A stretch of DNA of 37,597 nucleotides, from contig JAGTQA010000023.1 in assembly GCA_018396975.1 (NCBI GenBank), positions 1 to 37,597 on the forward strand, written 5' to 3'. The position numbers and the translations under genes were made by a program. The DNA comes from Candidatus Bathyarchaeota archaeon (GTDB lineage Archaea; Thermoproteota; Bathyarchaeia; Bathyarchaeales; DTEX01). This document shows, one piece after another, positions 12,107 to 19,309 of the stretch. The notes beneath the pieces were generated by a model. That model did not search any database, was not told the origin of the DNA, and was given only the letters and a program-made list of their open reading frames with translations. Within the stretch, counting starts at the first letter, position 1. Each line of letters begins with the position of its first letter.

Positions 12107-12185
12107 ACCACCCCAGAAAGGTCTCTAATGAATGCTTTAACCTCAATAAATTAGTGAGAGAAATTTATCCCTTTCTGGATTAGCC

Positions 12186-13592
12186 TTGCGGCTGCAAGCT
12201 TATATAGATGGCCTAAACCTATTCATTCACTTGATTAAGTTGTCCAGTAGCGAGGATCTAGCCAACATAGGACATCTAGGCGGCGAGTTTGCAGCTCAAG
12301 GCTTAGGGAAGACCATTTATGTCGAGAGCTATGGATGTGCGGCAAATAAGGCCGACCTAGAGATAATGCTCGCGCACATATTAAACTCCGGCTATAAACT
12401 CTCCGGCAGACCTGACGGGGCCGACATAATTTTGGTAAATACTTGCGGCGTTAAGAAGCCCACCGAAGACCGTATGATAGAGAGGATACGGCAGCTCAGT
12501 AGGCTTGGAAAACCATTGGTGGTTTCCGGATGCCTACCAAAGATAAACTTAGGGGCAATAGTTAAGGCTGCCCCAAATGTCTCAGCCCTACTAGACCCGT
12601 ACAGTGTTGACAAGATAAGTGCTGCCTTGAAAGCGGCTGAGAGCGGAGAGAGGAGAAGAATATTCTTCTCGGATAGACCCCCAATCAAGGTTGAGCAGCC
12701 AAAAATAAGGCTTAACCGGGTTATCGAGATAATCCCTATATCTGAGGGGTGCCTAGGCGCCTGCACATTCTGCTGCGTTAGGTTCGCTAGGGGCACACTC
12801 TTCTCTTATCCACCAAACCTAATCGTTGATAGGGTTAGAAGGGTGGTTTCGGAGGGAGTTAGGGAGATCTGGCTGACATCCCAGGATAATGGTGCATATG
12901 GATTAGATATTGGGACTAACCTAGCTGAACTGCTGAAGGAGTGCTGTAGTGTAGATGGTGACTTCTTCATTAGGGTTGGAATGATGAATCCAAACCATGC
13001 AAAAAAGATCTTACACGATCTCATATCCGCCTATAGAGATAAGCGGATATTCAAGTTCCTTCATATACCAGTCCAGAGCGGGGACGATTGGATTCTAAAG
13101 CAGATGAACCGAAAATATACAGTTGAAGAGTTTAAGATGGTAGTCCAAGCATTCAGGGAAGAGATCCCGGATATAACAATAGCCACGGATATTATATGCG
13201 GCTTCCCCGGGGAGAGTAAGGATGCCTTTGAGAGAACCCTAAGGCTCATGGAGGAGATTAAGCCCGATATAATCAACATATCCAAGTTCTTTCCTAGACC
13301 TAATACGCCAGCGGCGCTCATGAAGCAGATTGATACTAGGGAGATATCTTTAAGGAGCCGCATGATGACGGAACTCGCCAATAAAATATCGCTTAACAGA
13401 AATGAGAGGTGGATTGGATGGGAGGGCAGAATACTTATTGATGAGGAAGGTACGAGCGGTTCATGGATTGGGAGAAACTATGCATACAAGCCGGTGGTCG
13501 TTAGAAGCCAGGAGGATCTCCTAGGGAAAACTGTTAATGTTAAGATTATCGAAGCTCACACAAATTATTTAGAGGCTAAGATAATAGATTAG
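12186..13592 (+). CDS. tRNA t6A37 methylthiotransferase (e-MtaB/CDKAL1 type)
   Basis: A radical SAM enzyme predicted to convert t6A to ms2t6A at tRNA position 37. Three expected parts are visible. The MTTase domain has cluster cysteines in ESYGCAANKAD (Cys51), VNTCG (Cys87) and VSGCLP (Cys116). The radical SAM motif is CLGACTFC (Cys189, 193, 196). A C-terminal TRAM domain (about 405-465) binds tRNA. At 468 aa it is slightly long, because about 42 residues precede the usual KTIYVESYGC start. No ATG or GTG is available there. TTG 12186 and TTG 12240 are the candidates, neither with a clear RBS. A TATA-like AAATTTAT at 12161-12168 fits leaderless initiation near 12186. Confidence 0.92.
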   Translation: MRLQAYIDGLNLFIHLIKLSSSEDLANIGHLGGEFAAQGLGKTIYVESYGCAANKADLEIMLAHILNSGYKLSGRPDGADIILVNTCGVKKPTEDRMIERIRQLSRLGKPLVVSGCLPKINLGAIVKAAPNVSALLDPYSVDKISAALKAAESGERRRIFFSDRPPIKVEQPKIRLNRVIEIIPISEGCLGACTFCCVRFARGTLFSYPPNLIVDRVRRVVSEGVREIWLTSQDNGAYGLDIGTNLAELLKECCSVDGDFFIRVGMMNPNHAKKILHDLISAYRDKRIFKFLHIPVQSGDDWILKQMNRKYTVEEFKMVVQAFREEIPDITIATDIICGFPGESKDAFERTLRLMEEIKPDIINISKFFPRPNTPAALMKQIDTREISLRSRMMTELANKISLNRNERWIGWEGRILIDEEGTSGSWIGRNYAYKPVVVRSQEDLLGKTVNVKIIEAHTNYLEAKIID

Positions 13593-17989: not shown

Positions 17990-17996
17990 GGAGTGA
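17990..17996 (+). promoter_or_regulatory. Shine-Dalgarno deciding an ACG start for rpo7
   Basis: GGAGTGA (GGAGGTGA with one G missing) ends six bases before ACG 18003. An in-frame TGA at 17994 excludes any upstream start, and no ATG, GTG or TTG occurs in frame before 18096. Confidence 0.65.
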
Positions 17997-18002
17997 GCGG
18001 TT

Positions 18003-18575
18003 ACGTTTAATCTGGTAACCGTTGAGGATACAGTTCGCATACCGCCCGAGAAATTTAATGAGCCCCTTGAGAAGGTTGCTCTGGAGCAGCTTAAGATGAA
18101 ATATGTGGGCGTTATAGATGATGAGCTAGGCTACTTAATAGCTGTCACAGATGTTAAGGTCTCGCCGGTGGGCAAGATAATCCCCGGAGACGCTGCAACC
18201 CACCATAAGGTAACATTCTCACTCCTAACATTCTTACCCAAGATTCAGGAGATTGTTGAGGGCGAGGTTGTTGAGGTTGCAGACTTCGGCGCATTCATCC
18301 GGATTGGACCAGTAGACGCCCTCCTCCACGTATCACAGTTAATGGACGACTTCATAACCTATGATGAGAAGCAGGGGATTCTGATGGGTAAGGAGACTAA
18401 GCGGAAAGTGTCTGTTGGCGATAGGATGCGTGTTAGGATAACAGCTGTGTCAATAGGTAGGGGGGCTAGCTTCGGCAAGATAGGTGTCACCGCACGCCAG
18501 CCATTCCTCGGAAAAATTGAGTGGATCGAGGAGGACTTAAAGAGGCTGAGAGCTGAGGCTAAAGAGGAAAAGTGA
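18003..18575 (+). CDS. rpo7: RNA polymerase subunit Rpo7 (RpoE'), apparent ACG start
   Basis: Rpo7 forms the polymerase stalk with Rpo4 and binds emerging RNA. The track ORF starts at ATG 18096 and lacks the first 31 residues. Upstream in the same frame the sequence reads NLVTVEDTVRIPPEKF and EPLEKVALEQLK, the conserved Rpo7 N-terminus. The C-terminal S1 domain is clear (VEGEVVEVADFGAFIRIGPVD). The position matching the family's Met is ACG 18003, preceded by GGAGTGA. This gives 190 aa, normal for the family. The upstream in-frame stop at 17994 allows no other common start codon. Alternatives are a sequencing error or initiation elsewhere. Two TATA candidates (TTTTTAAAT 17908-17916, TTTATATA 17921-17928) precede it. 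It heads the cluster with spt4 and the DUF359 kinase, a common archaeal arrangement. Confidence 0.9.
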   Translation, partial: TFNLVTVEDTVRIPPEKFNEPLEKVALEQLKMKYVGVIDDELGYLIAVTDVKVSPVGKIIPGDAATHHKVTFSLLTFLPKIQEIVEGEVVEVADFGAFIRIGPVDALLHVSQLMDDFITYDEKQGILMGKETKRKVSVGDRMRVRITAVSIGRGASFGKIGVTARQPFLGKIEWIEEDLKRLRAEAKEEK

Positions 18576-18594: not shown

Positions 18595-18780
18595 TTGGTT
18601 GAGAGGGCATGTAGAAGGTGCCATTACATAACCGAGGAGAATATCTGCCCAAACTGTAAATCAACCGATCTAAGCGAGGACTTTAGCGGCCTAGTAATAA
18701 TATTTGATCCGGAGAGATCAGCAATAGCGAAAACAATGAGGATTGAGAGGAAGGGGCGGTATGCGATAAAAGTGAGGTGA
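18595..18780 (+). CDS. spt4: Transcription elongation factor Spt4 (RpoE'')
   Basis: A 61-aa zinc-ribbon protein that pairs with Spt5 to promote RNA polymerase processivity. The paired knuckles ACRRCHYITEENICPNC are followed by SEDFSGLVIIFDPERSAIAKTM, the Spt5-binding part. The start is TTG 18595; an in-frame TGA lies immediately upstream, so nothing longer is possible. It sits 19 nt after rpo7. Its stop codon overlaps the Shine-Dalgarno of the DUF359 kinase. Confidence 0.95.
   Translation: MVERACRRCHYITEENICPNCKSTDLSEDFSGLVIIFDPERSAIAKTMRIERKGRYAIKVR
18774..18780 (+). promoter_or_regulatory. Shine-Dalgarno deciding an ACG start for the DUF359 kinase
   Basis: GAGGTGA is a perfect seven-base match to the anti-SD and lies seven bases before ACG 18788. 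In-frame TGA 18773 blocks longer forms. No ATG, GTG or TTG occurs in frame before ATG 18998. Confidence 0.7.
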
Positions 18781-18787
18781 GGAAGAC

Positions 18788-19309
18788 ACGTATATTCTTA
18801 CGCCCGAGCTAAGAAGTGAGCTGAAAGCCCCACTGGGACCCATTATTAGGGGTTCAGTAGAGGAAACCATTAGGGAACTGGAGAAGCTGATTAAGTTCAC
18901 TAGACCCGTCAAAATTATTTCTGTAGGCGATGTTATCTCAAGAAGTATTCTTGAGAGGAAACTTCCGCTAGACATTTTCATTGTAGACAATAGGTCCATG
19001 AGGGAGCCTATAGAGCCCCTAGAGTTCAAGGTGGACAGAACACTAATGCTTACTAATCCAGCTGGTACAATCGCCGATGACTCTTGGAGGGTGATAGGTG
19101 AAGCGGTCAACTCAAATGGGCTCGTTAAGGTTTTGGTTGATGGGGAGGAGGACCTTCTCACCATTGTAGCGGTTCTCATGGCTCCGGAAAATTCACTAGT
19201 TATTTATGGGCAGCCCAATGAAGGCATAGTTGTGATTAGGGTTGACGGGGAAGCTAAGAATAGGATGCGTGAGATTATAAATAGAATGGAGTGTAAACCG
19301 GAAAGCTAA
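18788..19309 (+). CDS. GTP-dependent dephospho-CoA kinase (DUF359), apparent ACG start
   Basis: The archaeal enzyme performs the last step of coenzyme A synthesis, phosphorylating dephospho-CoA with GTP. The track shows only 18998-19309. Translating upstream in the same frame gives YILTPELRSELKAPLGPII, then VKIISVGDVISRSILERKLPLDIFIVDNRSMR, both hallmarks of this family. The downstream part has NPAGTIADDSW and LVDGEEDLLTIVAVL, with the conserved acidic GEEDL site. The full length from ACG 18788 is 173 aa, typical. GAGGTGA ends seven bases before this ACG. ATT 18794 is the only other nearby candidate and is badly spaced. It lies next to spt4 and upstream of rps24e, as in many archaea. Confidence 0.88.
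   Translation, partial: TYILTPELRSELKAPLGPIIRGSVEETIRELEKLIKFTRPVKIISVGDVISRSILERKLPLDIFIVDNRSMREPIEPLEFKVDRTLMLTNPAGTIADDSWRVIGEAVNSNGLVKVLVDGEEDLLTIVAVLMAPENSLVIYGQPNEGIVVIRVDGEAKNRMREIINRMECKPES

Follow-up and report, generated by a model that had tools for sequence, protein, structure and literature searches.

Comparison with related archaeal genomes indicates that rpo7, which encodes RNA polymerase subunit Rpo7/RpoE1, very probably starts at an ACG codon reached through a Shine-Dalgarno (SD)-like motif and read by methionyl initiator tRNA (Met-tRNAi), that this follows a clade-wide habit, and that the ACG has probably been kept for reasons of dosage. The gene lies on the forward strand of a 37,597-nucleotide stretch of a Candidatus Bathyarchaeota genome (the window, meaning the whole stretch), where letters 17990-18005 read GGAGTGAGCGGTTACG. 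The SD-like GGAGTGA occupies 17990-17996 and its TGA (17994-17996) doubles as the in-frame stop of the rpo7 frame, after which the codons run GCG GTT ACG TTT AAT CTG GTA ACC GTT GAG GAT and onward. From this stop to 18096 the frame holds no ATG, GTG or TTG, the first being ATG 18096, and a six-nucleotide spacer separates GGAGTGA from the inferred start codon, ACG 18003-18005, from which the gene (18003-18575) would encode 190 amino acids. A reading confined to ATG (18096-18575) is truncated: it drops 31 conserved codons and with them roughly half of the SHS2_Rpb7-N domain (residues 10-65). The stop-to-stop open reading frame carries SHS2_Rpb7-N (PF03876) and S1 (PF00575) domains, scores as an Rpo7/RpoE member against NCBIfam NF006333 (239 bits, cut-off 143) and reaches 202 bits against TIGR00448 (cut-off 124). 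In both family profiles, position 2 aligns with residue 4 of this frame, so profile position 1, the initiator Met, falls on residue 3, which is ACG 18003. The three features by which we recognized a non-canonical start, namely absence of a canonical in-frame start, conservation of the codon in the Met column and SD distance, are all found at rpo7. An earlier note on this DNA had placed the Rpo7 N-terminus upstream of ATG 18096, in a frame empty of canonical starts, with ACG 18003 at the family's initiator Met position six bases after GGAGTGA; codon reading confirms the empty frame, the profile matches and the 31 conserved codons there bear out the N-terminus, and profiles and relatives agree on the codon.

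The same note had proposed a start-codon alignment across sister genomes, and this comparison, with ACG in about 20 related genomes, strongly supports an rpo7 that starts at ACG. Below, G and L numbers denote relatives' genomes and loci, G000 being the window's own genome and G002 another of the same genus; the named relative loci are from Candidatus Bathyarchaeota, in the order that includes B26-1 and Bathyarchaeum. The rpo7 initiator column is ACG in all 18 genomes of the window's family (f1) with a readable start. Across the order, with 163 genomes surveyed, ACG was found there in the window's family, in G022 (another family) and in G037, and ATG, TTG or GTG elsewhere, except for four genomes of family f8 with CTG. 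Nearly all relatives have SD-like motifs at similar spacing before rpo7, the motif of G022 lying further off, and in several of them an in-frame stop stands two codons ahead of the ACG. The possibility that the true base is a T, lost through a sequencing or assembly error, might be entertained for a single metagenome-assembled genome in 75 contigs, but the relatives refute it: about 20 assemblies from different projects share the same ACG, which makes the chance of such an error next to negligible. The earlier note's suggestion of a sequencing error does not hold up, and on this comparison the rpo7 ACG is a fixed biological feature. CTG at the rpo7 initiator column was seen both in other Bathyarchaeia (L161, L166, G114, G117, G144 and G148) and at two Thaumarchaeota metagenome-assembled loci (L174 and L175); at L161, L166 and L175 an in-frame stop stands one or two codons before the CTG.

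If the ACG were a plain threonine codon and rpo7 started elsewhere, at the GCG or GTT just upstream, at CTG 18012 or at ATG 18096, or were reached by a frameshift, the codon should evolve as other threonine codons do. Across 18 distinct ACG genomes, with steps counted on a single-gene tree of uncertain topology, the ACG shows zero changes at all three positions, whereas the 89 degenerate rpo7 columns with an invariant amino acid average 5.2 silent third-position steps, only one of them having none, and two-fold C/T columns average 3.95. Two threonine columns with an invariant amino acid in the same genes have 7 and 8 changes, and threonine usage in these genes is spread over ACA (53), ACT (47), ACC (46) and ACG (34); the third base of the start ACG is always G, unlike that of other threonine codons there, and would vary in an ordinary one. 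This absence of change, set against the silent turnover at other columns, implies that neither the C nor the final G is free to vary. The break in conservation falls exactly at the ACG: pairwise differences per codon position are 0.62/0.65/0.62 upstream of it and 0.22/0.12/0.57 over codons 2-31, a translated and selected pattern. Purifying selection acts on amino acids 2-31, a point against a start elsewhere. In favor of this alternative, CTG 18012 is a plausible near-cognate codon, and an out-of-frame TTG (17983) and GTG (17993) are present; however, CTG 18012 appears as CTA, TTA, TTG, ATA and others in relatives, the codons preceding the ACG are unconserved, only the ACG is fixed at all three positions, and in several relatives an in-frame stop lies two codons ahead of it. 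We regard a start elsewhere as improbable.

The position, conservation and recurrence of the codon are direct observations; how it is used we infer, and SD-assisted near-cognate initiation by Met-tRNAi would be the simplest reading. The upstream SD would place the 30S subunit at ACG 18003, and ordinary Met-tRNAi with anticodon CAU would read the ACG in spite of a C.A mismatch in the middle of the codon; because Met-tRNAi would be the reader, Rpo7 most likely begins with Met. The initiator tRNA is itself ordinary (A1-U72, GGG/CCC anticodon stem, anticodon CAU) and identical in G000 and G002. We considered an altered initiator with anticodon CGU and rejected it, since the initiator has CAU; no initiator-type tRNA with anticodon CGU was found in the parts of the genomes searched, and the only tRNA-Thr(CGU) found, in G002, is of elongator type (G1-C72). 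A degenerate aIF1, the archaeal factor in the role corresponding to that of IF3 (PMC6237735), was likewise rejected as a cause: aIF1 is present and looks ordinary (the protein named in our analysis is that of jannaschii).

Initiation at ACG is inefficient in the systems studied so far, which counts against the ACG reading. The rpo7 ACG is one transition, at its C, away from ATG. The retention of this C suggests that ATG may not just be the better codon at this site, and the invariance of the ACG suggests that a start of low or controlled strength may have been selected. Probably the ACG has been retained because weak initiation fixes or modulates the dosage of Rpo7, in the manner of the AUU of infC and the GTC of sigR in bacteria. 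The infC start is ATT in E. coli and ATC in Streptomyces (PMC5472188). Like rpo7, E. coli infC is a conserved gene with a fixed, SD-supported non-canonical start one base off ATG (PMC5472188), but it differs in codon, gene and domain of life and is repressed by its own product, IF3; since Rpo7 is not an initiation factor, simple autoregulation by codon discrimination is not expected for rpo7. Streptomyces sigR also belongs to the transcription machinery and uses a rare start codon, GTC, with a strong SD; it is conserved across Streptomyces, and tools that expect only ATG, GTG or TTG led to its misannotation (PMC5472188). The sigR case differs in being bacterial, IF3-dependent and tested by experiment. 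In the non-AUG (ACG, CUG) initiation of eukaryotes and their viruses the normal initiator tRNA reads ACG, as we propose for rpo7, but there it usually involves leaky scanning and extra isoforms, whereas for rpo7, an essential gene in an archaeon that uses SD motifs, the ACG would be the sole start.

In Bathyarchaeia of this clade, ACG, CTG and ATT would serve as minor start codons beside ATG, TTG and GTG. Starts were compared between 0.965 Mb of G000 and 1.19 Mb of G002, and the best non-canonical starts were those of NadX, GatA, HflX, an ECF-type ABC ATPase and a MalK-type ABC ATPase; the NadX and ECF-type columns were confirmed in many genomes by degenerate pattern searches that printed the matched letters. 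Aspartate dehydrogenase NadX has ACG in seven genomes of the genus, G000, G001, G002, G003, G005, G007 and G010, where the open frame ends a few codons upstream, and also in G012, G013, G015 and G024, but with longer upstream frames. GatA (ACG in both G000 and G002, shifted by one codon) and HflX (ACG in both, with an ATG six codons upstream as well in G002) are candidates. The start of the ECF-type ABC ATPase is CTG in G000, G004, G006, G007 and G008, TTG in G001, G003 and G010, GTG in G009, ACG in G002 and G024, and ATG in G005 and many outgroups; in most of the genus an in-frame stop closely precedes this column. On these alignments, a single column that swaps ATG, GTG, TTG, CTG and ACG has the look of start-codon turnover. 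The MalK-type ABC ATPase (L100:12130-13233, minus strand) has ATT at its initiator column after GGAGGTGATATAGT, and the same holds in G002.

These genes bear on C-to-U editing, the other alternative raised in the earlier note; on this view an ACG in the mRNA would become AUG, and a CUG would become UUG, ahead of translation. In its favor, ACG and CTG are precisely those that C-to-U conversion could make into AUG and UUG, and strict conservation of the ACG would suit an editing site. In plant plastids ACG start codons are edited to AUG. The plastid cases resemble rpo7 in that a conserved gene carries ACG as its initiator codon; they differ in needing organellar editing factors, and ATT starts also occur in these Bathyarchaeia. 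The ATT at the MalK-type Met column in G000 and G002 cannot become a canonical start by C-to-U conversion, and the occurrence of such starts in the same genomes makes editing less likely; the ECF-type column moreover swaps freely with ATG, GTG and TTG and needs no fixed site. To our knowledge no C-to-U editing of archaeal mRNA has been described, and we hold this explanation very improbable. Near-cognate initiation at ACG remains our preferred reading.

Many gene pairs without an aligned canonical start were rejected because a TTG or ATG lies nearby or because they are antisense shadows. For methionyl-tRNA synthetase (L081:400-460 in G000), neither G000 nor G002 offers a canonical start close to the N-terminus, and an SD points at CTC. 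This gene was not counted: CTCGG stays invariant across other families as well, and two places ahead of it stands ATG in G016, GTG in G027, GTT in most of the genus and ATT or GTC in other genomes. A small conserved open reading frame (L072, minus strand, 1266-1605) has ATA in G000 where its G002 orthologue has ATG, with a strong SD before it.

Non-canonical starts are a small minority: of 527 conserved gene pairs, some ten are candidates. Genome-wide, ACG is modestly enriched for SD motifs (6/45, versus 3.8% at the remaining non-canonical codons; p=0.007), and the difference loses significance when ACG is set against ACA, ACC and ACT (p=0.16), which counts against the ACG reading. In a tighter SD test ACG ranks third behind TTG and ATG, on small counts; an unbiased enrichment over all near-start codons gives a weak ACG signal, and a tally of codons at boundaries only, which is too noisy, gives none. 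In our reading, the case for ACG starts rests on gene-by-gene conservation and not on the SD statistic.

Near-cognate starts are already known, and what is unusual here is the codon, the gene and the depth of conservation. In a study of 36 prokaryotic groups, two of 61,358 ancestral AUG starts had changed to CUG and one to AUU, with ACG unmentioned (PMC5622118), and we found no report of a fixed ACG start in an archaeal RNA polymerase subunit in the literature searched. More tentatively, it is possible, though we think it rather doubtful, that this lineage has widened its start set to ACG, CTG and ATT and that the fixed rpo7 ACG links transcription capacity to the stringency of initiation. Since gene finders assume ATG, GTG or TTG, essential proteins are likely to be truncated or missed in this clade. 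Its ACG starts offer natural test cases for how far archaeal initiation (aIF1, Met-tRNAi and SD) tolerates a middle-base mismatch.

The earlier note is well supported on the rpo7 start but missed both the spread of such starts over genes and species and a second ACG in the window. This second putative start (18788-18790, plus strand) opens the gene for GTP-dependent dephospho-CoA kinase (DUF359), which read from the ACG spans 18788-19309; an SD-like GAGGTGA lies at 18774-18780, the in-frame stop TGA at 18773, and the next ATG at 18998. The column is also ACG in G001 and G010 and ATG in G006, and other relatives have ATG two codons upstream. At five loci of other Bathyarchaeia (L048, L051, L156, L162 and L163) the DUF359 gene has no ATG, GTG or TTG between its upstream stop and the conserved region. 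As an internal control, spt4 (18595-18780, plus strand, TTG start) has a canonical start in all relatives examined, and in the same genomes spt4, S24e and purA have normal starts, a single shifted S24e start being the exception. Elsewhere in the window, a gene for a MiaB-like tRNA methylthiotransferase (12150-13592, plus strand) lacks a canonical start in the vicinity of its conserved N-terminus (about 12297-12320), as it does in G002.
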